From positions 1 to 14,807 of the forward strand of contig JAFQUA010000030.1 of the NCBI GenBank assembly GCA_017408725.1: a stretch of DNA of 14,807 nucleotides, given 5' to 3'. Below, piece after piece: positions 1,881-14,034 of the stretch. Each line of letters opens with the position of its first letter. Position 1 is the stretch's first letter. The notes under the pieces are model-generated. The model ran no database searches. It saw only the letters and a list, made by a program, of their open reading frames with translations, and was not told where the DNA came from. The position numbers and the translations under genes are program-made. Source of the DNA: Oscillospiraceae bacterium (GTDB lineage Bacteria; Bacillota_A; Clostridia; Oscillospirales; Oscillospiraceae).

Positions 1881-1905
1881 TGGACAACCTCCCGTAACTG
1901 TCCAA
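1880..1905. promoter_or_regulatory. Operator A: perfect GGACA-N12-TGTCC dyad
   Basis: TTGGACA (1880-1886) and TGTCCAA (1899-1905) form a perfect 7-bp inverted repeat with a 12-nt spacer. It lies just upstream of the DUF308 promoter on the minus strand and upstream of operator B and the glycolipid promoter on the plus strand. The same dyad, with the same spacer length and the same TGTCCAAAAATG right flank, recurs at 5385-5416. From memory, the DhaS operator of Lactococcus lactis also has GGACA and TGTCC separated by 12 nt. Confidence 0.75.
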
Positions 1906-1910
1906 AAATG

Positions 1911-1933
1911 CGACACCTCACAGTAAGTGTCCG
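1911..1933. promoter_or_regulatory. Operator B: imperfect copy before the glycolipid operon
   Basis: CGACA (1911-1915) and TGTCCG (1928-1933) are separated by 12 nt. The left half matches the GGACA consensus at four of five bases and the right half is exact. The right half touches the -35 of the promoter at 1934-1962, and its end is 23 nt from the -10, the same distance as at operators A (minus strand) and D. Confidence 0.6.
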
Positions 1934-1992: not shown

Positions 1993-3006
1993 ATGGGCGA
2001 TGCTTTTTCCAGGATACTGATCCAAACCACCGTGCGGAAGGCAATTCGGGATATTCGGGAGACTCCCCAGCGAAGCACAAGAAATTTGATCGATATGGCG
2101 CTGCATTTTTCTAACGGCCGGTTCCAGCAGGAATTTTTCCAGATGGCGCAGAAGATGCTCTCCGACGAGCGCAGCGCTTACTATACCCTTTTGCAGGATC
2201 TTGCAACCCATGTAGACGAGGAAAAGCTGCTGACCTTCGGCATGAATGTTGGCTATAACAGTGCCACCTTTGGTGCCAAGCGGATTCGTCAACTGGAGGA
2301 AACCGACGGCTATAACATCCCCTGGACACTGTGCCTGGAGCTGAACCGTGCAAGCTTTGCCGGGCAGGAGGAGCGCTATCATACACTGATCGAGGCTGGA
2401 GAAGAGATGGGTATCTTTACATGGATGCTGTTTTCTCATTCCTGCGCTGCAGACTGCATAGAACTTGCAGTCCGCCATCCAAACAGCGCTTTTGTTCTTT
2501 TCTGCGACCATGGAGAGATCAACTGGCCCCTTATAGACTGTGCATCCGATTTGAACAATTTGATGTTAGCCGTCCCTATGGACGAAAATGCAGAACTCAC
2601 CTGCGATCTGTTACGGGAAGCAGGTATCTTATACAGCGTTTACACCTTCTATGGAGAGGACGACTTGAAGCGCATCCAAAGCGGAGACCTGTTTTGTGAT
2701 ATGGAACAGCTGCACCCGGTATTTTCTGCGTTTATCCCCAAACCGGGTTGTCCGCAGAGTGTACAAATGCTTGCTTATGAAGCAATCCACGCAGCCCGGA
2801 TGGCGCAGACCCATGCAACCATGCTTTGGGAGCTGCAAAGAGATTGTATGGTTGTTGACAGAATCATTTCCGGTGATGGCTGCTGGGCAGGCTTTGATGC
2901 AGAGGGTATGTTCCACGGTATTGACGAAAACGGAAAAAAACAGACTTTCACCGTTACAGATCCTTCTCTGGAAGCCTTGTTCAAGCAGGCATTTCCAAAA
3001 GAATAA
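1993..3006 (+). CDS. Degenerate radical-SAM-like protein, likely pseudoenzyme
   Basis: This 337-residue protein is the first gene of the glycolipid operon, with an AGGAGGTG site before its ATG. It does not match a named enzyme, but its pattern follows the clostridial radical-SAM group from memory: a helical N-terminus (about 1-100), then YNIPWTLCLELN (about 107-118, normally IPW followed by the cluster loop), then LIEAGEEMGIFTWML (132-146, normally ending in GGEPL), then HPNSAFVLFCDHGEI (162-176, normally with TNG). The CxxxCxxC loop is missing, as if deleted, and SHSC replaces GGEP. It therefore should not bind the usual 4Fe-4S cluster. It may be a scaffold or regulatory partner of the two following genes. 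The family link is inferred by eye; a different TIM-barrel origin is possible. It ends 19 nt before the next gene. Confidence 0.6.
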   Translation: MGDAFSRILIQTTVRKAIRDIRETPQRSTRNLIDMALHFSNGRFQQEFFQMAQKMLSDERSAYYTLLQDLATHVDEEKLLTFGMNVGYNSATFGAKRIRQLEETDGYNIPWTLCLELNRASFAGQEERYHTLIEAGEEMGIFTWMLFSHSCAADCIELAVRHPNSAFVLFCDHGEINWPLIDCASDLNNLMLAVPMDENAELTCDLLREAGILYSVYTFYGEDDLKRIQSGDLFCDMEQLHPVFSAFIPKPGCPQSVQMLAYEAIHAARMAQTHATMLWELQRDCMVVDRIISGDGCWAGFDAEGMFHGIDENGKKQTFTVTDPSLEALFKQAFPKE

Positions 3007-3025: not shown

Positions 3026-3517
3026 ATGAAAGGATTGCTAAACTGCGGAATCTACTTTGCGCTCACCGGAGTGCTGGGTTTTCTGGCAGGCAGAGCAGCA
3101 CCGAAGCATTGGTTTCGCTATGACCGTTTCCCGTACAGAAGCTTTGATTTTGAACAGGGCGGCAAGCTGTATGATAAGCTGAGGATCAAAAAATGGCTCA
3201 CCAAAGTGCCGGATATGAGCCGCATTTTCCCCGGCATGCCTGCCAAAAAGATCACCGGAAAACCAACGCAGGAAAGCTTAGGCGTGATGCTGCGGGAGAC
3301 CTGCGTGGCAGAGTGCACCCATGGGATATTGAATGTGACCGGGCTTGGCTGCTTTCTAATTTGGGACAGCGACTGGTGCATCATACTTTATGGAGCCTAT
3401 GTGATTCTGGGAAATCTACCCTATATGATCATTCAGCGGCACACCCGTCCAAGATTGGTGCGGATTCTGCACCGATGTGAATCCAAGCAGAAAGAGGAAC
3501 CCAAATGCGTTTGCTGA
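3026..3517 (+). CDS. CrtO-like glycosyl-carotenoid/glycolipid acyltransferase family protein
   Basis: This 163-residue membrane protein starts at the ATG preceded by GTGGGGGTTGGG, a weak ribosome binding site, 19 nt after the previous gene; the open frame extends further upstream but overlaps that gene. It has an N-terminal membrane segment (about 4-22), then WFRYDRFPYRSFDFEQGG and KLYDKLRIKKW (29-57), then VPDMSRIFPGMPAK, and two more membrane segments (about 95-135) before GNLPYMIIQRHTRPR. The RFP...GxxYxKLxIKKW pattern is the signature I associate with the CrtO family (glycosyl-4,4'-diaponeurosporenoate acyltransferase of staphyloxanthin synthesis). No carotenoid genes are present, so the acceptor is more likely a glycolipid made by the next gene, which it overlaps by 13 nt (inference). 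Confidence 0.7.
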   Translation: MKGLLNCGIYFALTGVLGFLAGRAAPKHWFRYDRFPYRSFDFEQGGKLYDKLRIKKWLTKVPDMSRIFPGMPAKKITGKPTQESLGVMLRETCVAECTHGILNVTGLGCFLIWDSDWCIILYGAYVILGNLPYMIIQRHTRPRLVRILHRCESKQKEEPKCVC

Positions 3518-4611
3518 TACTCAGCTGTAATACCGGCCAGGGGCATAACTCCTGCGCCAACGCGGTGAAATCCTATTTTGAGCAGCAGGGTGACACCTGC
3601 GACATTGCCGATGCACTCGGTTTTATTTCCGAAAAAGCATCCAAATTTATTTCTGGTTGGCACAGCAGACTTTACCGCCATGCGCCAACGGTATTTGATA
3701 AAGGCTATAAATATATCGAAAAGCATACCGGTTTGATTGCTGAGGATTCTGCTGCATACAATTTGCTGACCTCCGGTGCGGAAGAATTGCGTACCTTTAT
3801 TCAGGCGGGTAACTACGATGCTGTGCTATGCGTCCACATTTTTGCCGGTTTGCTCATTTCCAAGATGATGACACAGTATCTACTGCCTATCCGTACCGGC
3901 CTGTTGGCAACGGACTATACCTGCAGCCCCGGATTTGGAAGCTGCAATATGGATCATTATTTCATTCCGGATGAATCCCTGCGTGGTGGATTTGTTACAG
4001 CCGGAGTGCCGGGGAATCGCATCATCGCTTCTGGTATCCCGGTACGCGCAGAGTTTTTGGAAAGGCGGAGAAAAACCTGGGCAAAGAAACAACTTGGAGT
4101 TTGCACTGCGCATAACCACATTCTTATGATGTGCGGCAGCATGGGGTGCGGACCGATGGAAGAGGTTGCAGCACTTTTGGCTGAAAGTATGGATGCAAAC
4201 ACAGAACTGAGCATCATTTGCGGCACCAACGAAAAGCTGCAAAAGAGCCTGCGTAAGGCCCTGCGATCCTATTCCACTGTGCATATCCATGGATTTGTGA
4301 AAGAGATCCCATTGATGATGGATAGCGCGGATCTGTTTCTTACCAAGCCTGGTGGTATCAGCGTGTCGGAAGCGGCTGTGAAACGGTTACCCATGGTGTT
4401 GATCGATGCGGTGTCCGGCTGCGAATCCGGCAATCAGAAGTTCTTTTTGGAGAAGGGTGCAGCAAAAACAGCGGATACCCCGGAAGCGCTGGCCGCTTTG
4501 TGCGTGGAGCTTCTGAAGGATAAACCCCGGCTTTCCCAAATGGCAGAAAACTACGGTGGTTTATCTCGGCGGGACGCGTCTGCTGTGATCTATCAATATA
4601 TAACCCAATGA
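3505..4611 (+). CDS. MGDG-synthase/UgtP-like processive glycolipid glycosyltransferase
   Basis: This 368-residue GT-B enzyme belongs to the GT28 family of MGDG synthases and UgtP-type diacylglycerol glucosyltransferases. The N-terminus MRLLILSCNTGQGHN (1-14) carries the GxGH motif that opens the acceptor-binding domain. HIFAGLLISK (about 111-120) and ATDY (135-138) follow. The C-terminal donor domain has CGSMGCG (210-216) and the KPGGISVSEA stretch (281-290), where the nucleotide sugar binds, then NQKFFLEKGAA. It should transfer sugar from a UDP-sugar to diacylglycerol at the inner face of the membrane; which sugar is not readable. Length fits the family (about 370-400). The start overlaps the preceding CrtO-like gene by 13 nt, implying translational coupling. 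It is the last gene of its operon. Confidence 0.9.
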   Translation: MRLLILSCNTGQGHNSCANAVKSYFEQQGDTCDIADALGFISEKASKFISGWHSRLYRHAPTVFDKGYKYIEKHTGLIAEDSAAYNLLTSGAEELRTFIQAGNYDAVLCVHIFAGLLISKMMTQYLLPIRTGLLATDYTCSPGFGSCNMDHYFIPDESLRGGFVTAGVPGNRIIASGIPVRAEFLERRRKTWAKKQLGVCTAHNHILMMCGSMGCGPMEEVAALLAESMDANTELSIICGTNEKLQKSLRKALRSYSTVHIHGFVKEIPLMMDSADLFLTKPGGISVSEAAVKRLPMVLIDAVSGCESGNQKFFLEKGAAKTADTPEALAALCVELLKDKPRLSQMAENYGGLSRRDASAVIYQYITQ

Positions 4612-4614
4612 GTA

Positions 4615-4643
4615 AGGCGGCAGATCTTTAAGAACCGCCGCCT
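4615..4643. terminator. Convergent hairpin between glycosyltransferase and tetR
   Basis: AGGCGGC (4615-4621) pairs with GCCGCCT (4637-4643), a 7-bp GC-rich stem with a 15-nt loop. It lies 3 nt after the stop of the glycosyltransferase gene and 4 nt before the end of the minus-strand regulator gene. A short T-run (CCTTTTTC) follows on the plus strand. Confidence 0.55.
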
Positions 4644-4647
4644 ATGC

Positions 4648-5196
4648 TTATTCCTTTTTCATATCCTCGTAGATCGTGATCGTTGCGCGCTCTACCACAT
4701 TGCGGATGATGGATACAAACTGCTCTGCCGGAATACAGTCCTTGTCCAAAAGCCATCGGAGTATGGCGCACACGATTCCGTCAGCAAAGAAGTTCGCGCC
4801 GATTTGGTGAACATCTCCCGGGCCAACCAAATCTTCCATTCTGTTCTGCAGCAGAGGGAGCAGGAATTCCCGGAAATGCTCTGGCAGAGAGTTCTGACCC
4901 TGAACCTGAAATACTTTGTAGTAATAGCTTCTGTTGTCGTACAGATAGTGACAGATCCGTTCGACTACATCCCACCGGTCATTGGGATGACGGTCACGAA
5001 GAAGTGTGATTACTTCCGTGTCGAAGATCCAGTTGGCAAGGTCGTACTTGTCTTTGAAATGATAATAGAAGCTTTTGCGGTTCATATCGCATATTTCACA
5101 AATATCCGCAACACTGATCTTTTTGAAAGAGGTATCCTCCAGCAGCTTCTTCAGTGCCGAAGCCAATGCTTTTTTTGTAATATTGGAATCTGCCAT
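4648..5196 (-). CDS. TetR-family transcriptional regulator, DhaS-like
   Basis: This is a 182-residue TetR regulator. The N-terminal DNA-binding domain has ISVADICEICDMNRKSFYYH (about 27-46), the helix-turn-helix with the NRKSFYYHF recognition helix, followed by KDKYDLANWIF, as in the DhaS subgroup. The C-terminal region (about 60-180) is a helical ligand/dimer domain resembling TetR_C_8. I start it at the ATG preceded by TAAGGAGG with 9-nt spacing, because a longer upstream frame would run into the terminator hairpin. DhaS of L. lactis is an unusual TetR protein that activates transcription. The GGACA-N12-TGTCC dyads at four sites nearby match its operator as I remember it, making this gene the prime candidate regulator of both flanking operons. 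Its leader holds a probable Mn2+ riboswitch. No kinase-like partner (DhaQ) is present. Confidence 0.88.
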   Translation of the reverse strand: MADSNITKKALASALKKLLEDTSFKKISVADICEICDMNRKSFYYHFKDKYDLANWIFDTEVITLLRDRHPNDRWDVVERICHYLYDNRSYYYKVFQVQGQNSLPEHFREFLLPLLQNRMEDLVGPGDVHQIGANFFADGIVCAILRWLLDKDCIPAEQFVSIIRNVVERATITIYEDMKKE

Positions 5197-5217
5197 AGAA
5201 ACACGCCTCCTTAAAAT

Positions 5218-5260
5218 AAAAAAGACGAAACTCACCTGCCGATCGCAGATAAGTCTCGTC
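5218..5260 (-). terminator. Intrinsic terminator in the tetR leader (riboswitch expression platform)
   Basis: On the minus strand GACGAGACTTATCTG (5260-5246) pairs along its whole length with CAGGTGAGTTTCGTC (5238-5224), using three G-U wobbles and a 7-nt loop. TTTTTT (5223-5218) follows. The wobbles form only in the minus-strand RNA; on the plus strand they become mismatches, which fixes the orientation. It lies 22 nt before the tetR start. The 5' arm overlaps the 3' side of the aptamer, so folding of one excludes the other. Confidence 0.85.
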
Positions 5261-5333
5261 AATTAAGGTGATACCAGGAATTCTCCAGTATGTTGATATC
5301 CCGCACAAAAGTGCCGACTACTCCCTTATTTGG
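5248..5333 (-). promoter_or_regulatory. yybP-ykoY-type (Mn2+-sensing) riboswitch aptamer
   Basis: The minus-strand RNA shows the conserved parts of this family in order. P1 is ATAAG (5329-5325) with CTTAT (5253-5249). GGGAGTAG (5325-5318) is the first conserved junction strand. A short hairpin GCAC-TTTT-GTGC (5314-5303) follows. GATA (5300-5297) pairs with TATC (5273-5270) and flanks TCAACATAC (5296-5288), the conserved metal-site loop. GACGAGAC (5260-5253) closes the core. The 3' strand of P1 is shared with the 5' arm of the terminator, so ligand binding should block termination, the ON logic known for Mn2+ riboswitches of this type. I could not run a covariance model; the motif order and the overlap make the call strong. 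Confidence 0.8.
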
Positions 5334-5337
5334 CTTT

Positions 5338-5366
5338 ATTATACAGGAAAAAAACAGGGATTTCTA
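5338..5366 (-). promoter_or_regulatory. Predicted promoter of tetR
   Basis: A perfect TATAAT -10 box lies at 5343-5338 on the minus strand. The -35 position (5366-5361, TAGAAA at a 17-nt spacer) is poor. Transcription would start near 5331, at the first bases of riboswitch P1. Operator C lies 18 nt upstream of the -35 position. Confidence 0.55.
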
Positions 5367-5384
5367 TGAATGAACTGTAAATTC

Positions 5385-5416
5385 TTTTTGGACAAAATGG
5401 GGAAAATGTCCAAAAA
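5385..5416. promoter_or_regulatory. Operator C: perfect GGACA-N12-TGTCC dyad between tetR and the ATPase operon
   Basis: TTTTTGGACA (5385-5394) and TGTCCAAAAA (5407-5416) form a perfect 10-bp inverted repeat with a 12-nt spacer. Its core is identical to operator A. Its half-site is 45 nt from the tetR -10 on the minus strand, about two helical turns further than the 23 nt seen at the other three promoters. It may serve autoregulation or cooperative binding with operator D. Confidence 0.75.
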
Positions 5417-5447
5417 TGTAACAGTTTTTCTTCTGCGAGGAAAAGTG

Positions 5448-5469
5448 GGACAATCCTCCAAAGTGTCCG
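5448..5469. promoter_or_regulatory. Operator D: GGACA-N11-TGTCC dyad at the ATPase promoter
   Basis: GGACA (5448-5452) and TGTCCG (5464-5469) are separated by 11 nt, one fewer than the other sites. The TGTCCG half-site abuts the -35 position and lies exactly 23 nt before the -10, matching operator B at the glycolipid operon. Confidence 0.6.
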
Positions 5470-5498
5470 ATGAATTTCTGATTCAGCGCCCATATAAT
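5470..5498 (+). promoter_or_regulatory. Predicted promoter of the ATPase/phospholipid operon
   Basis: TATAAT (-10, 5493-5498) stands 17 nt after ATGAAT (5470-5475), a poor -35. A consensus -10 with a weak -35 next to an operator half-site is typical of an activated promoter. Transcription would begin near 5505, after the ATG at 5503, which therefore cannot be the start of the ATPase. Confidence 0.65.
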
Positions 5499-5529
5499 CT
5501 TCATGATAGCACTAAAAATAGGAGTGAAT

Positions 5530-8151
5530 ATGATGCTGTTCCATGACAAAACCTCGGATGCCGCTTTGCGAGAGTTGGAAAGTTCGCTGTCAGGCCTTAC
5601 TTCAGAGCAAATAAGCAAGAACCTCAGTGTACACGGCCCAAACAAACTGAAAGAAAAACCCAAGAAGACCAATCTGCAGCGGTTCTTTGACCAGTTCAAG
5701 GATGCTATGATCCTGATCCTGCTGGTGGCTGCTGCCATATCCTTTGTGATTGCCTGCGTAGAGGGGGAACCAAAGGAATTCTTCGAGCCGATTCTGATCC
5801 TGCTGATCGTCGTGCTGAATGCCGTTATGGGTGTGATGCAGGAGAGCAAGGCGGAAAAGGCGCTGGATGCGCTGAAATCCATGTCCGCACCCCATGCCCG
5901 TGTGATCCGGAACGGAAAAGAAGAGGTCATTGATGCAGTAGACCTGGTTCCCGGCGATATCATCCGTCTGGAGGCTGGTGACTTTGTGCCTGCGGATGCA
6001 AGGCTGTTGCAGAGCGTCAGTTTGAAGAGTGAGGAATCTGCCTTGACGGGCGAGTCTGTACCCTCTGAAAAGGATGCAGATACAGTGGTTGACGAGAAAG
6101 CACCGCTGGGTGACCGCACCAATATGGTCTTTTCCGGCTGCTCCATTACCTACGGCACTGCAATCGCTGTGGTCACTGCCACCGGTATGGATACCGAAAT
6201 GGGCAAGATCGCAAACCTGCTGGACAGCGAAGAGGAGGGACAGACTCCCTTACAGAAGAAGCTGGCACAGCTGGGCAAATATTTAGGTGTGCTTGCTATC
6301 GCTGCCTGCGCTGTTATTTTCGTGGTGGGTATGGCAAACGGCATTCCCGCCATGGAAATCTTTATGACTGCCGTTTCTCTGGCTGTTTCCGCAATTCCCG
6401 AAGGCCTGCCTGCTATCGTGACCATCGTTTTGAGCATCGGTGTGCAGCGGATGGTGAAGAAGAATGCCATTATTCGCCGCCTGCCTGCGGTGGAAACGCT
6501 GGGCGGTGCCTCTGTCATCTGCTCTGATAAGACCGGTACTCTAACCCAGAACCGCATGACCCTGGTGAAGGCATATATCGACACCTGGGAAGAAGCAGAA
6601 AATATCTCCAATCAAAACTCTGCCGCTGTGAAGCAGCTACTGACCTACGGCACCTTGTGCTGTGATGGCAGCGTGGTGTTTGATGGCGCAGAGGAAAAGC
6701 ACATCGGTGACCCCACTGAAACGGCTATCGTTTTGGCTGCCCATAAGAACGGCATGCCGAAGGACGAACTCAATAAACAGTACCCCAGATTGGCGGAGAT
6801 CCCCTTTGATTCCGACCGGAAGCTGATGACCACCGTGAACCGGATCGACGGCAAGAACATCGTCATCGTCAAGGGTGCTTTCGATGTAATGGCTGCAAAA
6901 TGTGTTGCCGGTGATCTGGCTGCCGCAACACGGATGAATCAGCAAATGAGTGAGAATGCTCTGCGTGTCCTTGCCATCGGCTATAAGGAAATCGACAAAA
7001 TTCCTGCAAATCCCGCCCCGGAGGAATTGGAGTGCGGTTTGACCTTTATGGGTCTTGTGGGTATGATCGATCCACCCAGACCGGAAGCAAAGGAAGCTGT
7101 CGCAGTCTGCCGCAGAGCAGGTATCAAACCTGTAATGATCACCGGCGACCATGTGGTGACCGCCTCTGCCATTGCCAAGGAGCTGGGCATTCTGCTTCCC
7201 GGTGACAAGGCAATCACCGGTAGCGAACTGGATGCTATGTCGGATTCCGAACTGGATGCCCAGGTGGAGAATATCTCCGTTTATGCCCGTGTATCCCCGG
7301 AGAACAAGATCCGCATTGTCAAGGCATGGCAGCGCAAGGGCCAGGTGGTTTCTATGACCGGCGACGGTGTCAATGACGCGCCTGCGCTGAAGGCTGCCGA
7401 TATCGGCTGTGCCATGGGTATCACCGGAACGGATGTTGCCAAGGGTGCTGCGGATATGACCCTGACGGATGATAACTTTGCTACCATCGTGGATGCCGTC
7501 CGGGAGGGCCGAGGCATCTACGCCAACATCAAAAAGGTGGTTGGCTTCCTGTTGGGTACCAATATCGGTGAAGTGATTACCGTGTTTGTGGCTATGCTGC
7601 TGTGGCATGAATCGCCGCTGCTTTCCATGCAGCTTCTGTGGATCAATCTGGTTACAGACTCTTTGCCTGCCATCGCCTTGGGCATGGAGCCGGTAGAAAA
7701 GGATGTTATGGACCGCAAGCCCAAGCCCAAGGATGAAGGCCTGTTTGCCCACGGCTACGGTGTGCAGACGGTGCTGCAGGGCTGTATGTTCGGCGCTCTG
7801 TCCTTAATTGCTTACTATATTGGCAAGACCCAGACTGGCTGCGTTGAGGGTGGTCAGACGCTGGCATTTATGGTACTGGCACTTTCTCAGATCGTGCAGG
7901 CCTTCAATATGCGCTCTGAGCATTCTCTGTTCAAGATCGGCTTCTTTACCAACAGCACACTAAATAAGGCTGCGCTGATTTCCGTTGCGCTGGTGGCGCT
8001 TGTGATGTTCACACCGCTGAGTACACTGTTTGGTTTGATCTCCCTGTCCGGAACACAGTATTTGATCGGTCTTGGACTGATCTTGGTTCCCTTGGTAGTC
8101 ATGGAAATCGTAAAGGCTTGCGGCCTTATCAAGTCCCATCATCGTAAATAA
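5530..8151 (+). CDS. P2A-type cation-transporting ATPase (Ca2+/Mn2+ class)
   Basis: This 873-residue P-type ATPase pumps a cation, most likely Ca2+ and/or Mn2+, across the membrane at the cost of ATP. Motifs in order: TGES (173-176) of the actuator domain, PEGLP (290-294) in M4, the phosphorylation site DKTGTLT with D333, TGDHVVTASAIA in the nucleotide/P domain, TGDGVNDAP (610-618), and the M6 stretch NLVTDSLPAIALG with N706 and D710. These M4 and M6 motifs are those of the SERCA/PMR1-like P2A class; there are no N-terminal metal-binding domains as in heavy-metal pumps. I start it at the ATG after AGGAG, since the longer frame begins before the predicted transcript. It heads the operon and is divergent from the riboswitch-controlled regulator. 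Mn2+ export by related YoaB-type pumps under yybP-ykoY control makes Mn2+ attractive, but Ca2+ cannot be excluded. Confidence 0.93.
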   Translation: MMLFHDKTSDAALRELESSLSGLTSEQISKNLSVHGPNKLKEKPKKTNLQRFFDQFKDAMILILLVAAAISFVIACVEGEPKEFFEPILILLIVVLNAVMGVMQESKAEKALDALKSMSAPHARVIRNGKEEVIDAVDLVPGDIIRLEAGDFVPADARLLQSVSLKSEESALTGESVPSEKDADTVVDEKAPLGDRTNMVFSGCSITYGTAIAVVTATGMDTEMGKIANLLDSEEEGQTPLQKKLAQLGKYLGVLAIAACAVIFVVGMANGIPAMEIFMTAVSLAVSAIPEGLPAIVTIVLSIGVQRMVKKNAIIRRLPAVETLGGASVICSDKTGTLTQNRMTLVKAYIDTWEEAENISNQNSAAVKQLLTYGTLCCDGSVVFDGAEEKHIGDPTETAIVLAAHKNGMPKDELNKQYPRLAEIPFDSDRKLMTTVNRIDGKNIVIVKGAFDVMAAKCVAGDLAAATRMNQQMSENALRVLAIGYKEIDKIPANPAPEELECGLTFMGLVGMIDPPRPEAKEAVAVCRRAGIKPVMITGDHVVTASAIAKELGILLPGDKAITGSELDAMSDSELDAQVENISVYARVSPENKIRIVKAWQRKGQVVSMTGDGVNDAPALKAADIGCAMGITGTDVAKGAADMTLTDDNFATIVDAVREGRGIYANIKKVVGFLLGTNIGEVITVFVAMLLWHESPLLSMQLLWINLVTDSLPAIALGMEPVEKDVMDRKPKPKDEGLFAHGYGVQTVLQGCMFGALSLIAYYIGKTQTGCVEGGQTLAFMVLALSQIVQAFNMRSEHSLFKIGFFTNSTLNKAALISVALVALVMFTPLSTLFGLISLSGTQYLIGLGLILVPLVVMEIVKACGLIKSHHRK

Positions 8152-8173: not shown

Positions 8174-9976
8174 ATGGCAGAAGAGAAAAGCAAGCGAAGA
8201 ATCGTGATCATTCCGGCCTATGAGCCGCCAGACACCTTTTTTACATATGCACGTAAGGTGATCCAAAGGGCAGATCGACTGATCGTTGTCAATGACGGCA
8301 GCGATGTGCGTTTTCAGCCGATATTCCGCGCCATCGAAAGCCTTCCCCGCACAACGGTCCTTTCCTATGAAGAAAACCGGGGAAAGGGATATGCGCTGAA
8401 GCAGGCGTTTTCCTATTGCGCAGAGCACTTTGCGGAGGAGGATATCATCGTAACGGCAGATTGTGACGGTCAGCATTCGCTTGGGGATGTAAAAGCCGTC
8501 TGCGATGCTGCGGCACGGTACCCGGAAAGCTATGTGCTGGGCGTCCGGGATTTTGACTATCCCAATGTGCCGCCCAGAAGCAAAGCCGGTAACACACAAA
8601 TGCTGCGCCTGTTTCGCTTGCTATATGCGCTGGAAATCACAGACAGCCAAACGGGCCTTCGTGCCTGTACCGTAAAAACAGCGCAGGCCTTTTTGAAGGT
8701 CAGCGGCAACCGCTTTGAATATGAGACCGGCACGCTGATCTTTGCCAAACGCAACCATATCCCCATCCGGGAAGTCAGCATTCAGACCATCTATCCGGAA
8801 AACAAGGAAGATCATGTATCCCATTTCAAGACATTCCGGGATAGCTGCCGGGTAGTGGGGATCATGCTGCGTTACCTGCTGGGCAGTATGATATCCGGTC
8901 TGCTGGCGACAGCCACAGATCTTTGCGTGTTCTCCCTTTTGACCTATGTGGTGTTTCCGAAAATCGCACCTATTTACACCATGATCGCAACGGTTTTGGG
9001 CAGGATCGCATCCTCCGTGATCAATTTTTGGTTTAACTGCAAGTATGTATTCCACGGAAAACCCAAGCGGTCACTGGGCCGGTTTTACATCGTGTGGGCG
9101 GGACAGGTAATTTGCTCCTATGGCAATATCTATCTGTTCGGCCATGTGCTGGGCGGTCATCTGACGCTGATGAAGCTGATCGGCGACTGCGTTTTGGCGC
9201 TCCTTGCTTATCGGCTGCAATGCAGCTGGGTTTATGAAGAACCGAAAGAGGAAGGCTTCTACGGCAGCTTTGCCCGATTTGGCAGATGGCTGCTGCGTAC
9301 CTTTTCTCCTCGATATAAAACCGATCTTACGAAACCGAGTGAGCCGGTGGTATATGTCTGTCGGCACTTAAATATGCACGGCCCTTTTACGACCCTGAAA
9401 TGGCTGCCGTTTCATGTCCATCCCATGATCCTGCATGTGTACTTTGATAAGGAAAAGACTGTGAAGCACATGACGGAATATACCTTTTCCGCCCGCTATG
9501 GAAAGAAACCCAAGAAGTTCAGCCTTGCTGCCCATGTGATGAGCTGGGTATCGCCGCCGATGATGGCGTCTTTGCAGGGTATCCCAGTGTACAGAAGCGG
9601 CATCGGATCTATTTCTACCCTTAAAACGGGTCTTAAGTACCTTCTGAAGGGCGAATGCCTGATCGTATACCCGGATATTGATTACACCGGCAATTACGGA
9701 AAACCAAGTGAGATCTACGATGGCTTTTTGATGCTTGGAGATATGTATCTCAAGAAAACCGGTAAGGCACTGACCTTTGTGCCGCTGGTGATCGACGATG
9801 AACACCGGCACATCGTAGAGGGGAAAGCCGTATGCGTCAGCAATTTCCGCAAAGAGTGCGCCGGTGCAGCGGACTATCTGAAAAGGGCCATCAACAAAGA
9901 GGAGATCAGCTGTGATCACGATATCGTTTATTCTGTTGCTGCTGGTCAGCAGCCTGTTTGTAAACCCAAAGGGTGA
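8174..9976 (+). CDS. Three-domain fusion: GT2 glycosyltransferase, GtrA, acyltransferase-like
   Basis: This 600-residue protein joins three parts. Residues 8-230 are a GT2 glycosyltransferase of the dolichyl-phosphate-mannose-synthase type: IIPAYEPP, NDGS (40-43), NRGKG (68-72), DCDGQH (96-101, metal/UDP-sugar binding) and SQTGLR (158-163). Residues 233-354 are a four-helix GtrA domain, with INFWFNCKYVF and a final YRLQCSWVY, which usually carries a polyprenyl-linked sugar across the membrane. Residues 365-575 resemble a PlsC-type acyltransferase: CRHLNMHGP (396-404), GIPVYR (469-474), LKGECLIVYP (491-500). The catalytic HxxxxD reads HLNMHG, lacking the Asp, and EGTR is replaced by DIDYTG, so this part is probably inactive or altered. 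It lies 22 nt after the ATPase gene and overlaps plsC by 65 nt. Together the parts suggest glycolipid or lipid-linked sugar work at the membrane. Confidence 0.85.
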   Translation: MAEEKSKRRIVIIPAYEPPDTFFTYARKVIQRADRLIVVNDGSDVRFQPIFRAIESLPRTTVLSYEENRGKGYALKQAFSYCAEHFAEEDIIVTADCDGQHSLGDVKAVCDAAARYPESYVLGVRDFDYPNVPPRSKAGNTQMLRLFRLLYALEITDSQTGLRACTVKTAQAFLKVSGNRFEYETGTLIFAKRNHIPIREVSIQTIYPENKEDHVSHFKTFRDSCRVVGIMLRYLLGSMISGLLATATDLCVFSLLTYVVFPKIAPIYTMIATVLGRIASSVINFWFNCKYVFHGKPKRSLGRFYIVWAGQVICSYGNIYLFGHVLGGHLTLMKLIGDCVLALLAYRLQCSWVYEEPKEEGFYGSFARFGRWLLRTFSPRYKTDLTKPSEPVVYVCRHLNMHGPFTTLKWLPFHVHPMILHVYFDKEKTVKHMTEYTFSARYGKKPKKFSLAAHVMSWVSPPMMASLQGIPVYRSGIGSISTLKTGLKYLLKGECLIVYPDIDYTGNYGKPSEIYDGFLMLGDMYLKKTGKALTFVPLVIDDEHRHIVEGKAVCVSNFRKECAGAADYLKRAINKEEISCDHDIVYSVAAGQQPVCKPKG

Positions 9977-10610
9977 ATACACGCAAAACAGCCGCTTCTA
10001 CCGTTGGCTGCTTCATACTGCCAGCGGCGCAGCGATCAAGTTGTTGGGTATCCGTGTCCATGTGACCGGGATGGAGAAAGTTCCTTCTGACACCCGCTTC
10101 CTGCTGGTCAGCAACCACCGATCCAATTACGATCCCATCCTCACATGGCAGGTATTCAAGAACTATGATCTTGCCTTTGTGTCCAAGCCGGAGAATTTCA
10201 AAATTCCCATGTTCGGACGAATTATCCGCAAATGCTGCTTCCTGCCAATTGACCGGGAAGATCCCAGAAAAGCGATCGTGACCATCAATAAGGCAGCAGA
10301 CCTCATAAAAGCGGACACGGTTTCGGTCGGCATCTATCCCGAAGGCACTCGGCACCGGGGCGAAGAAATGCTTCCCTTTCAAAATGGTGTGTTCAAGATC
10401 GCCAAGAAATCGGATGTCCCCGTTGTGATCGTATCTGTTTCGGGAACGGACCAAATCTGCCATCGGCTGTTCCGGGGCGTGGATGTTCAGCTTCGTGTGC
10501 TGGATGTGATCCCGGCAGAAACCGTGGCAGAAGCAAAGACAGCGGAATTGGGCGATACAGTACGGACGATCATCTCTCATGATCTTGGGAGGATTACCCA
10601 TGCTACTTAA
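9912..10610 (+). CDS. plsC: 1-acyl-sn-glycerol-3-phosphate acyltransferase (PlsC-like)
   Basis: This 232-residue enzyme acylates lysophosphatidic acid to phosphatidic acid, the hub of phospholipid synthesis. It has an N-terminal membrane anchor (about 2-17), the catalytic NHRSNYDP (68-75) with H69 and D74, the IPMFGRIIRK acceptor region (about 98-107), YPEGTR (142-147) and VPVVIVSV (169-176). All catalytic residues are intact, unlike those of the acyltransferase-like domain in the gene before it. The start is GTG, supported by AAAGAGGAG 7 nt upstream, inside the end of the preceding gene; the 65-nt overlap implies coupled translation. The next gene overlaps its end by 11 nt. Confidence 0.9.
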   Translation: MITISFILLLLVSSLFVNPKGEYTQNSRFYRWLLHTASGAAIKLLGIRVHVTGMEKVPSDTRFLLVSNHRSNYDPILTWQVFKNYDLAFVSKPENFKIPMFGRIIRKCCFLPIDREDPRKAIVTINKAADLIKADTVSVGIYPEGTRHRGEEMLPFQNGVFKIAKKSDVPVVIVSVSGTDQICHRLFRGVDVQLRVLDVIPAETVAEAKTAELGDTVRTIISHDLGRITHAT

Positions 10611-12129
10611 ACAAAAATGGTTTCGCGTATTATTCCGCAGACGGATGCTGATTGCGTTCATTATCGTTCTGCAGGCGGCTTTTTTTGTTTATGCCATTGC
10701 CAGCGGCAGCATGGTATCCCGAAATCTTGGACGGCTTCTAACTCTGCTCAGCATTTTGGCGGTACTGTCTATTGTTTCCACACGGAGCAAGGGCGCTTAC
10801 AAAACTCTGTGGGTATTTCTGATCCTGTCCTTTCCCATCTTTGGCGGTCTTCTGTATCTGATGGTGAATTTCCAGGGCACCACCAAACGAATGCAGAAAG
10901 ATCTGCAAAAGGCAAAGGAAAAGGCAGCACCTCTTTACAGCCTGCCGGGAAATGGCTATGACGAAGCAAGGTCTTCTATGCGTGACCACTTTCCGCAGGT
11001 GCGTTATTTGCAAGACTTTGCGAAGTTCCCGGTGTATACCGGTACAAAAACCAAATATTTACCCCTTGGAGAAGCCATGCTGGAGGAATTGCTGCTTCAG
11101 CTGGAGAAGGCGGAGCATTACATCTTCCTGGAGTTTTTTATCATCCAGGAAGGAAAAATGTGGAACAGCATTCTGGAGGTTTTAAAGCGGAAAGCCGCTG
11201 AAGGGGTGCAGGTGCGGGTCATTTACGATGACCTTGGCTGCTTCTTTCTGCTTCCCAAGGATTACCCCAAGCAGCTGGAACAAATGGGCATCGAGTGCGC
11301 GATCTTCAATCCCTTCCGTCCGGTACTGACCGTCAAGCAGAACAACCGTGACCACCGGAAAATCGCCGTCATCGATGGTAAAGTTGCCTTTACCGGCGGC
11401 ATCAACCTGGCTGACGAATATATTAACGCCTATGAAAAGCACGGTCACTGGAAAGACACGGCGGTGGTGCTGGAGGGCAAGGCGGCCTGGAGCTTTACCC
11501 TGATGTTTCTAGAAATGTGGCAGGTCTGCAAAGGCTGTGACGAAGACTTCAGCGCTTACTATTTGCCAATGCAGGAAGAAACCGACGGCTTTGTGTTGCC
11601 ATATTGCGACAGCCCCATGGATACCGACAATGTGGGAGAGCATGTGTATTTGCAGATTCTGAACGAGGCAAAGAACTATGTTTATATCAACACCCCTTAC
11701 CTGATCATCGATGACAGCATGGTGTCCGCCCTGTGTCTGGCAGCCAAACGGGGTGTGGATGTGCGGATCGTTACCCCTCATATTTGGGATAAGCGGTTGG
11801 TGCATATGACTACCCGGTCTTACTACCGTGAGCTGATCCGTGCCGGTGTCAAGGTTTATGAATACTCCAAGGGGTTTATCCACGCAAAAAGCTTTGTGTC
11901 CGATGACTGTATCGCTACCGTCGGTACAACCAATCTGGACTTTCGCAGCTTGTATCTGCATTTTGAGTGCGGCACCTGGTTTTATGGAAGCGATGCGGTC
12001 ATGCAAACCAAGGAGGACTTCCTTGAAACGCTTACCGTATGCCAACCGATTTTGGAAGCTGATTGCAAAGCAAATCCCTTTGTAAAGCTGATTCAAGATA
12101 TCCTGCGGCTGTTTGCTCCGCTGATGTGA
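10600..12129 (+). CDS. cls: Cardiolipin synthase (phospholipase D type)
   Basis: This 509-residue cardiolipin synthase condenses two phosphatidylglycerols. Two N-terminal membrane segments (about 15-35 and 45-90, the PLDc_N region ending FGGLLYLMVNF) precede two phospholipase D domains. Their HKD motifs are DHRKIAVIDG (H252, K254) and IHAKSFVSDD (H428, K430), both complete, and each is followed by the usual GG/GTTN stretch (FTGGINLADE; VGTTNLDFRS). Length matches bacterial Cls. I start at the ATG 7 nt after GGGAGG; an ATG seven codons upstream lacks a good site. It overlaps plsC by 11 nt and is followed 31 nt later by the lipid kinase. Confidence 0.93.
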   Translation: MLLKQKWFRVLFRRRMLIAFIIVLQAAFFVYAIASGSMVSRNLGRLLTLLSILAVLSIVSTRSKGAYKTLWVFLILSFPIFGGLLYLMVNFQGTTKRMQKDLQKAKEKAAPLYSLPGNGYDEARSSMRDHFPQVRYLQDFAKFPVYTGTKTKYLPLGEAMLEELLLQLEKAEHYIFLEFFIIQEGKMWNSILEVLKRKAAEGVQVRVIYDDLGCFFLLPKDYPKQLEQMGIECAIFNPFRPVLTVKQNNRDHRKIAVIDGKVAFTGGINLADEYINAYEKHGHWKDTAVVLEGKAAWSFTLMFLEMWQVCKGCDEDFSAYYLPMQEETDGFVLPYCDSPMDTDNVGEHVYLQILNEAKNYVYINTPYLIIDDSMVSALCLAAKRGVDVRIVTPHIWDKRLVHMTTRSYYRELIRAGVKVYEYSKGFIHAKSFVSDDCIATVGTTNLDFRSLYLHFECGTWFYGSDAVMQTKEDFLETLTVCQPILEADCKANPFVKLIQDILRLFAPLM

Positions 12130-12160
12130 TCCGATAGATAGAGAAAGAAGGTACATTTCC

Positions 12161-13036
12161 ATGACGACCTACATTCTGTATAACCCCCTTGCCGGTTCCG
12201 GTGACTGTAAAAAAGATGCCCAGGCACTGGAGGTTTTGTACGACAATACAAAGTTGATCGATGTGACGCAGATTATAAACTATCCTGTGTTTTTAGGCGG
12301 CCTGGAGGCTGACGACGATATTATCCTCTGTGGCGGCGACGGGACACTGAACCGCTTTGCCAATGCCATCCGGGATATTCCGTTAAAGAACAACATTTAT
12401 TATTATGCCAGCGGCAGCGGCAATGACTTTGTTCGGGATTTGGGAAAGGAAAAGGGCGCGCAGCCCACATTCCGTATCAATAAGTATTTGAAGAATCTTC
12501 CCACCGTTACGGTCAATGGGGAGGAGCGTGTTTTCCTTAACGGTGTGGGTTACGGAATCGATGGCTATTGCTGTGAGGTGGGCGATCAGCTTCGGGAAAC
12601 TTCTGATAAACCGGTGAATTACACATCCATCGCCATTAAAGGCTTGCTGTTCCATTATAAGCCCACAAACGCAACGGTAACAGTAGACGGTCACACCCAT
12701 ACATACGAAAAGGTTTGGATCGCGCCGACCATACACGGAAGGTATTATGGCGGCGGTATGATCCCTACACCCGGTCAGCAGCGGCTGGGAAAGAAAAACA
12801 CCCTGAGCCTTATGATCTTCCACGGGTCCGGAAAGCTGCGCACTCTGTGCATCTTTCCTTCGATTTTTAAGGGAGAACACATAAAGCATAAAAATGTAGT
12901 GGAGATCATAACCGGCAAGGATATCACGGTAGAGTTTGACCGGCTTGCGCCCTTGCAGATCGACGGCGAAACCATTTTGAATGTAGCAAAATACCACGCA
13001 GTTGCTTACGATGGGAATAAGCGCAAAGGAGGGTGA
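12161..13036 (+). CDS. Diacylglycerol kinase-like lipid kinase (DagK/YegS family)
   Basis: This 291-residue protein has the DAGK catalytic fold: YNPLAGSGD (7-15) near the start, CGGDGTLNRFANAI (57-70) for ATP binding, SGSGNDFVRD (84-93) in place of the usual GTxNDFAR, and a C-terminal beta domain with VWIAPTIHGRYYGGGMIPTP and the closing LQIDGE. It should phosphorylate diacylglycerol to phosphatidic acid or act on a related lipid. In this operon it would recycle diacylglycerol, which arises in lipid turnover, into PlsC's product, phosphatidic acid. The start follows GAAAGAAGG. The next gene starts 2 nt after its stop. Confidence 0.88.
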   Translation: MTTYILYNPLAGSGDCKKDAQALEVLYDNTKLIDVTQIINYPVFLGGLEADDDIILCGGDGTLNRFANAIRDIPLKNNIYYYASGSGNDFVRDLGKEKGAQPTFRINKYLKNLPTVTVNGEERVFLNGVGYGIDGYCCEVGDQLRETSDKPVNYTSIAIKGLLFHYKPTNATVTVDGHTHTYEKVWIAPTIHGRYYGGGMIPTPGQQRLGKKNTLSLMIFHGSGKLRTLCIFPSIFKGEHIKHKNVVEIITGKDITVEFDRLAPLQIDGETILNVAKYHAVAYDGNKRKGG

Positions 13037-13038
13037 CT

Positions 13039-14034
13039 ATGAAGAAAAGCACAAGGAATCTGCTGATCGGTGCCGGTGTTGCCACAACTATTACTGCGAT
13101 GGGTGCTGCGGCATATACAGTTTCCAAAAGCTTGTTAGAATTCGCCTTGGACCGGGAGGCGCCCAAGATCTTCAGGAAGGGCAAAAAGAAGCTATCGGGT
13201 TATGATGAAGCGTATGACCGGCTCATGACCGAAGTGGATGCGGCTGCCCAAAAACTGGAAGACTGCGGTTGCACAACAGTAGAGATCATCGGTCATGATG
13301 GAATCAAACTGGTGGGTCATTGGTACGAAAATCCCAATGCCCGGCGCATTGTAGTTGCCATGCATGGCTGGCGCAGCTCCTGGAACCAGGACTTTGGAAT
13401 GATCGCAGATTTTCTGCACGATAACGGCTGCAGTGTGCTGTACGCGGAGCAGCGTGGACAGAATAGCAGCGGCGGAGAGCATATGACTTTCGGTCTTTTG
13501 GAACGCTATGACTGTCTGAATTGGATCAACTGGGTCAATGAAAACACCCAGGTAGAACTGCCTGTCTATCTGGCAGGTATCTCCATGGGTGCCACAACGG
13601 TATTGATGGCCACAGGCTTGGAGCTTCCGAGCAATGTCCGTGGTGTTGTTGCTGACTGTGGCTTTACCTCTCCTTATGCGATTTGGAAGTATGTGACCGA
13701 AGAAAACCTGCACCTAAGCTATAAGCTTCACGGCAATTTGGTGGAGCGGCTGTGCCAGCGGAAAATTCGCATGGGTGCAAAGGAGTATTCTACCATGGAT
13801 GCCATGCAAGGCTGTCAGATTCCTGTGCTGTTCATCCACGGAGCGGATGATACCTTTGTCCCAGTGACAATGACCTACGAAAACTACCGGGCATGCACAG
13901 CACCCAAACAGTTGCTCATTGTCCCCGGCGCTCAGCACGGCCTGAGCTACTATGTAGAGCAGGAGAAATATGAAAAAGCAGTCAATGAGTTTTGGGAAAC
14001 CTATGATATTTGTTCCAGCGGCTGGGCTGGGTGA
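13039..14034 (+). CDS. Membrane-anchored alpha/beta hydrolase
   Basis: This 331-residue serine hydrolase has an N-terminal hydrophobic stretch (about 8-27, without a clear cleavage site) that probably anchors it with the catalytic domain outside. The catalytic part shows VAMHGWRSSW (oxyanion region, 107-116), YAEQRGQNSSGG, the nucleophile elbow AGISMGA (179-185, S182), HGADDTFVP with D271 and GAQHGLSYY with H300. It resembles the YqkD group of Bacillus. The substrate is unknown; given the operon, a lipid ester is reasonable (inference). The ATG is taken over the GTG 6 nt earlier because GGAGGG sits at the correct distance. It is the last gene of the operon. Confidence 0.88.
   Translation: MKKSTRNLLIGAGVATTITAMGAAAYTVSKSLLEFALDREAPKIFRKGKKKLSGYDEAYDRLMTEVDAAAQKLEDCGCTTVEIIGHDGIKLVGHWYENPNARRIVVAMHGWRSSWNQDFGMIADFLHDNGCSVLYAEQRGQNSSGGEHMTFGLLERYDCLNWINWVNENTQVELPVYLAGISMGATTVLMATGLELPSNVRGVVADCGFTSPYAIWKYVTEENLHLSYKLHGNLVERLCQRKIRMGAKEYSTMDAMQGCQIPVLFIHGADDTFVPVTMTYENYRACTAPKQLLIVPGAQHGLSYYVEQEKYEKAVNEFWETYDICSSGWAG

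Follow-up and report, generated by a model that had tools for sequence, protein, structure and literature searches.

A Mn2+-type riboswitch leader before a lone DhaS-like TetR gene and its predicted relay to cation ATPase and lipid operons

Introduction

Metal riboswitches are usually regarded as local valves on transporter genes. Members of the yybP-ykoY family that precede mntP or P-type ATPase genes (L. lactis yoaB, S. pneumoniae mgtA, C. difficile CD2503) have in common an L1/L3 core, an invariant adenosine, mutual exclusion of P1 and a terminator, and ON logic. The L3 adenosine contacts Mn2+ in crystal structures (PMC6754395), and a three-way form of the riboswitch has been described (PMC9495176). 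The L. lactis Mn2+ riboswitch is called an ON-switch in PMC9190785; section 18 of the review PMC11477304 calls Mn2+ riboswitches OFF switches.

RNA sensors placed above regulators are also known. PocR is under a cobalamin antisense riboswitch (PMC9943018) and cmrRST under a c-di-GMP-II riboswitch (PMC11477304); in both, the RNA sets the amount of a regulator that acts on other operons, and tfoY is likewise a riboswitch-governed regulator. These systems differ from the locus described here in ligand and regulator family, and in none of them does a metal riboswitch control a TetR gene. Nor was a Mn2+ riboswitch before a TetR gene found in the consulted portions of the open-licence literature searched (including PMC6754395, PMC3766115, PMC7266159, PMC11477304, PMC9495176, and PMC9943018). 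The parts are known and the arrangement is new. On the protein side, the closest described systems are DhaS (L. lactis, PDB 2iu5), the activator of the dihydroxyacetone kinase operon, and SPV_0647, a TetR regulator of membrane composition in S. pneumoniae with a DhaS-like predicted fold and lipid-linked targets (PMC12647141).

We analyzed a 14,807-nt stretch of an Oscillospiraceae contig (the window), in which a Mn2+-type leader precedes a TetR gene alone, as an initial annotation of the same DNA had claimed. We propose that a Mn2+-sensing ON riboswitch heads the tetR transcript. At high Mn2+, docking of L1 and L3 would stabilize P1 and deprive the terminator of its 5' arm; with termination prevented, polymerase would read into tetR and TetR would be made. 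This relative of the activator DhaS would then bind GGACA-N12-TGTCC upstream of its own promoter, of a divergent P2A ATPase gene, and of a gene beginning at position 1993 (gene 1993), and activate those operons: the ATPase with the lipid genes behind it, and gene 1993 with the glycolipid genes behind it. Mn2+ control would thus spread to several operons through a protein, in an arrangement derived from a riboswitch-mntP-tetR operon by loss of mntP. We give this whole reading a probability of roughly 60%; it draws on the computed aptamer and terminator, their conservation, the erosion of mntP, and the association of the operator with tetR. A metal riboswitch here appears to govern a transcription factor that has a conserved operator of its own; the metal signal would thereby be broadened and tied to membrane lipids.

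Results

The tetR leader

The yybP-ykoY motifs and closing P1 (ATAAG/CUUAU) that the annotation had read on the minus strand were located in order, before a single gene, that of the regulator (Table 1). The leader starts at about 5331, directly behind the TATAAT box at 5343-5338; the promoter-like site is one of three pattern matches in the region against 2.1 expected, weak alone but placed directly at the leader start. The tetR start is the ATG at 5196, preceded by AAGGAGG and separated by 50 nt from the aptamer model's end; a longer listed open reading frame begins at a TTG inside the leader. Also as claimed, there is a terminator that takes its 5' arm from the aptamer. Its arm is the aptamer's 3' half (GACGAGACUUAU), so that closed P1 and the terminator are mutually exclusive, as they are in Mn2+ riboswitches of the ON type; in the yybP-ykoY family P1 competes with either a terminator or an anti-SD helix. 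Unlike the described systems, this leader has no P4 arm, and the gene downstream encodes a transcription factor rather than a transporter. The scan of 4550-5560 gave two terminator-like sites, neither of which is the convergent terminator said to end tetR: on the 3' side of tetR an opposite-strand gene ends at 4611, and the scan showed no terminator between.

Table 1. Features of the window, with position, strand, and the basis of each assignment
Feature	Position	Strand	Basis
Operator-like palindrome before gene 1993	1882..1903		pattern search
One-mismatch site CGACA-N12-TGTCC, 29 nt on, adjoining TTGTTT-17-TATACT	1911..1932		read from sequence
Gene 1993, predicted target; its 337-aa product matches neither Pfam nor NCBIfam	1993..3006	plus	domain searches
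CrtO-like and MGDG-synthase-like genes behind gene 1993, same strand	3032..4611	plus	domain searches
TetR_C_8 (DhaS-like) regulator, 182 aa	4648..5196	minus	domain, profile, and fold searches
Intrinsic terminator, 16 pairs + TTTTTT, 5' arm containing the aptamer's 3' strand	5224..5260	minus	folding and terminator scan
Mn2+-type (yybP-ykoY) aptamer: P1, L1, P2, P3.1, L3, P3.2; no P4	5247..5331	minus	covariance models and relatives' leaders
Aptamer 3' strand, GACGAGAC	5260-5253	minus	read from sequence
L3, CAACATACT	5295-5287	minus	read from sequence
L1, GGGAGTAG	5325-5318	minus	also written GGGAGUAG in the RNA core test
tetR promoter-like site TAGAAA-17-TATAAT	5338..5366	minus	pattern match only
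Operator-like palindrome GGACA-N12-TGTCC in the tetR-ATPase intergenic region, 80 nt ahead of the leader start	5390..5411		pattern search
Operator-like palindrome GGACA-N11-TGTCC, adjoining the ATPase -35	5448..5468		pattern search
Likely ATPase promoter ATGAAT-17-TATAAT, weak -35	5470..5498	plus	by eye and compared with relatives
P2A-type cation ATPase, predicted target	5530..8151	plus	profile/domain searches
Glycosyltransferase, acyltransferase, PLD-type, diacylglycerol-kinase-type, and hydrolase genes behind ATPase, same strand (putative operon)	8174..14034	plus	domain searches

The annotation had proposed a search with the Rfam model RF00080, which gave 20.3 bits (E 0.04), under the curated gathering score of 45. 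Leaders directly before mntP in three related genomes (G011, G013, and G004) also score only 27.7, 26.5, and 25.4 bits, so this threshold does not separate members here; RF00080 exceeded its cut-off in none of the 18 genomes searched. Because RF00080 is too blunt a search tool, we built a covariance model, R1, from 19 relatives' leaders upstream of tetR, with the window excluded. R1 scores the window leader at 90.2 bits (E 1.3e-27, although the tool warns that its E-values are rough). The fold of 5345-5209 is more stable than all 200 shuffles (z -4.75); on this and the R1 score we dropped the idea of a chance fold. In the R1 alignment 95.7% of cells are paired and 9 of 26 pairs have changed on both sides (4.3 in shuffles, with 1 of 500 as high), against pairing in 31-48% of cells for slid structures; these controls flatter the structure, which was derived from one of the 19 leaders and judged on an alignment of related rows. 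With that structure, the P1-P2-P3 fold is kept by paired changes in relatives, as family membership entails.

Searched against 295 genomes of the order, R1 found 129 matches at E <= 1e-6 in 111 genomes. The best 30 loci were fetched: 17 lie before mntP, 11 before P-type ATPases, one before tetR, and one before an mntP-like fragment with a response regulator. A model made from leaders of tetR-containing operons thus picks out mntP and ATPase leaders, so that R1 recognizes the exporter riboswitch. On these features, rather than on its RF00080 score, we file the leader as a divergent yybP-ykoY member, of the Mn2+ riboswitch kind. Two further candidates were dropped: a second riboswitch on the ATPase, as the window holds just one R1 match, and an sR44 match at 6546-6498 (22.3 of 45 bits).

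The TetR protein and its predicted targets

PF00440 and PF14278 match the regulator above their cut-offs and it has a TetR fold, which places it in TetR_C_8, the fold that it has in common with DhaS. Against the DhaS model TIGR02366 it reaches 117.9 bits, below the equivalog cut-off of 129, and we therefore call it DhaS-like rather than DhaS; unlike the DhaS system, the window is also without dha genes. Its nearest solved relatives are DHSK_reg and DhaS. 4MK6 heads its fold-match table, as it does the table of related folds for SPV_0647; unlike the window protein, SPV_0647 has no riboswitch or metal link in the consulted portion of PMC12647141. The DNA-binding part contains a CxxC pair (C33 invariant, C36 in at least 90% of 48 sequences), a possible redox or metal site.

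The P2A ATPase lies on the strand opposite tetR, as the annotation had placed it, and is divergent from it. It scores best against Ca2+-ATPase models, with the top two below their cut-offs. In relatives, patatin, VTT-domain, and DegV proteins are encoded near the predicted targets. No such ATPase was found in genomes G001, G007, and G008, where the visible target is a 1993-type gene, with an exact operator-like site in L031 and degenerate sites only in L005 and L025.

The model of the gene 1993 product is confident (pLDDT 91.5) and forms a partial barrel with weak radical-SAM-like fold matches (TM 0.42-0.46); a radical SAM gene often lies divergent to the 1993-type gene in relatives. Divergent from gene 1993 in the window is a gene for a DUF308 membrane protein (1288-1821), so the palindrome between them could serve this gene too. 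DUF308 genes also occur near tetR in several relatives.

The operator-like palindrome

GGACA-N11/12-TGTCC occurs three times in the window against 0.09 expected (spacers of 10-14 searched), a number that none of 200 shuffles reached. We extended the search to the best 80 of 507 confirmed tetR loci, whose proteins are 47-56% identical to that of the window. At 31 of the 80 loci the 500 bp upstream of tetR contain an exact N12 site, 22 times the rate elsewhere. When spacers of 4-24 were scanned, only 12 stood out, with 38 sites within 900 bp upstream and 40 elsewhere (at most 2 and 6 for any other spacer), and seven scrambled palindromes gave no sites upstream of tetR in these 80 loci. The position is also regular. 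Among 26 leaders (25 relatives plus the window), 20 are preceded by an exact site at a distance of 69-80 nt from the leader start, and of 77-80 nt in 19 of them including the window; the remaining six have no exact operator before the leader. Exact sites precede 1993-type genes in 30 of 60 promoter regions examined.

ATPases divergent from tetR have an exact site in 14 of 17 cases, against 1 of 27 for orthologues with no tetR seen in cis; the exception, L167, is near a contig end, and its genome has tetR at the start of another contig. This contrast and the upstream enrichment tie the palindrome to this TetR, which we infer to be its binder. We take the DhaS operator to have the same 22-nt GGACA...TGTCC form. 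The annotation's guess that the metal signal is relayed to several operons gains support from such palindromes before tetR, the ATPase, and gene 1993.

In more distant relatives this tie fails: the stretches fetched for L164, L267, L276, and L110 showed no exact operator. The first three of these are among the four order-wide tetR loci that have the leader. A genome-wide search gave at least 83 sites against at least 18 in a backward control, as sums over 20 genomes among the matches listed; these sites were not placed in promoters, and we name no further targets from them. Seventeen mntP loci elsewhere held one exact operator (L232), inside the mntP gene. In 1993-type promoters of L001-L080, a TTGTTACCTTTT element recurs just before the operator that abuts the -35.

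Direct and relayed control of the ATPase

Thirty orthologues of the ATPase (71-79% identity, the best of 295 genomes) were sorted by what lies upstream. Six have an R1 leader (five directly, one through mntP), four have the operator, 20 have neither, and none has both. The six leader-ATPase genomes (including G330 and G356) are not among the 25 with tetR in the order-wide sample; the counts are small and neither absence is significant alone. The distribution fits an ATPase that may be coupled to the Mn2+ switch in one of two ways, directly or via TetR, and the five orthologues that the riboswitch controls directly suggest the same physiology. More tentatively, at somewhat less than even odds, the whole regulon of P2A cation ATPase and glycolipid/phospholipid genes would be under a Mn2+ riboswitch via one TetR activator, with the same ATPase wired over evolution to a Mn2+ switch by RNA directly or by an RNA-controlled protein, after repeated deletion of the intervening exporter gene.

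At L078:7360-8224, an R1 leader (40 bits) precedes an open reading frame whose beginning resembles a P2A ATPase and whose remainder is a CDP-alcohol phosphatidyltransferase. It looks as though an ATPase had been deleted and the lipid gene had taken over the riboswitch.

If the relay is real, activation is probably its sign. The sites lie upstream of the -35 and off the promoter core, and the ATPase has a weak -35 (ATGAAT). Before ATPases and 1993-type genes they often come in 29- or 58-nt steps, the last adjoining the -35. With an ON riboswitch, activation would also make the circuit agree with the form in which the riboswitch drives the ATPase directly. Most TetR proteins are repressors, and the same sites are within reach of the promoters too; high Mn2+ might then raise TetR, and with it the repression of the ATPase and lipid operons or of the tetR transcript. 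We consider this opposite sign unlikely, though the best placed of the alternatives: the tandem sites upstream of the -35 argue against it, the nearest characterized relative, DhaS, is an activator by its PDB title, and Mn2+-driven repression would oppose the forms with direct riboswitch control of the same ATPase.

Conservation of the leader and loss of mntP

Whether relatives keep the riboswitch-tetR pairing, a check that the annotation had called for, was answered positively. An R1 leader lies 5' of tetR in 25 of the 80 loci, 19 of which supplied the leaders for R1. L005, L010, L016, and L020 are nearly identical copies, and L018, at 15 bits, was left out of the count. Between leader and tetR, mntP is intact in seven, in pieces in three (L029, L060, and L070), and undetectable in 15; a search of the intervening stretches in L009 and L053 found no mntP remnants. 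When 81 TetR proteins are placed on a tree, the 7 rows of the mntP-bearing form are scattered and take 7 changes. The leader-only label has 14 rows and needs 10 changes, of which well-supported branches force 9; L009 and L053 are labelled otherwise on this tree, after an older grouping by distance. We read this as an old leader-mntP-tetR operon that would have lost mntP repeatedly; transfer or regain would be the other account of the distribution. Relatives with the exporter intact, eroded, and gone offer a readable history of an RNA sensor becoming the head of a protein regulon.

A similar arrangement was seen at L134:600-1587, where an R1 leader (87.8 bits) is followed first by an mntP-like fragment and next by a response regulator of the OmpR type. 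This may be another instance in which a regulator has been left downstream of a Mn2+ riboswitch.

The leader could instead be a relic of the lost mntP that still switches tetR with little consequence, the TetR answering its own ligand, such as a lipid. The leader is absent at 55 of the 80 tetR loci, and a core loop is lost in 2 of the 25 leaders (L1 in L015, L3 in L042) and the leader is decayed in L018 as well, so many lineages manage without it. All 15 examined genomes in which the operon's mntP is lost or eroded have an mntP at another site; an R1 leader lies nearby in five of them and a weak partial match in one more. In S. pneumoniae, a DhaS-like TetR protein has a role in membrane composition (PMC12647141). 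Across the order the pairing is rarer, in 4 of 25 genomes with tetR (G004, G280, G371, and G403) and at 4 of 129 R1 matches.

Against a relic stands the pattern of conservation. Among nine leaders of leader-only lineages the aptamer is 68% alike and the sequence that follows it 21% (averaged over 36 pairs; L034 and L025 are irregular). The terminator is kept too, its fold sharing the aptamer's 3' strand in 23 of 26 leaders (25 relatives plus the window; read by eye), and on the TetR tree the leader persists in many separate lineages. We judge an inconsequential leader slightly less likely again than a repressing TetR, and prefer the Mn2+ relay to both. The tetR leader is the sole R1 match at E <= 1e-5 in 12 of the 22 genomes that have one; of these 12 genomes, G014 also contains a weaker leader, at 22.6 bits, in front of an ATPase (L084), and G010 and G454 have a damaged core.

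Ligand of the leader

That the leader senses another cation such as Ca2+, with TetR serving Ca2+ export, is improbable: a Streptococcus family member also binds Ca2+ and controls a cation ATPase (PMC9495176), the residues behind the invariant adenosine vary among relatives, and the window ATPase scores best against the Ca2+-ATPase models noted above, but the window L3 (CAACAUACU) matches the Xanthomonas Mn2+ aptamer letter for letter around the adenosine that contacts Mn2+ there (PMC6754395). Mn2+ is the presumed ligand. The Mn2+-contacting adenosine is in place in the window, within the CAACAU of L3 and together with the L1 core; L1 is kept in 25 of 26 leaders, as is CAACA.
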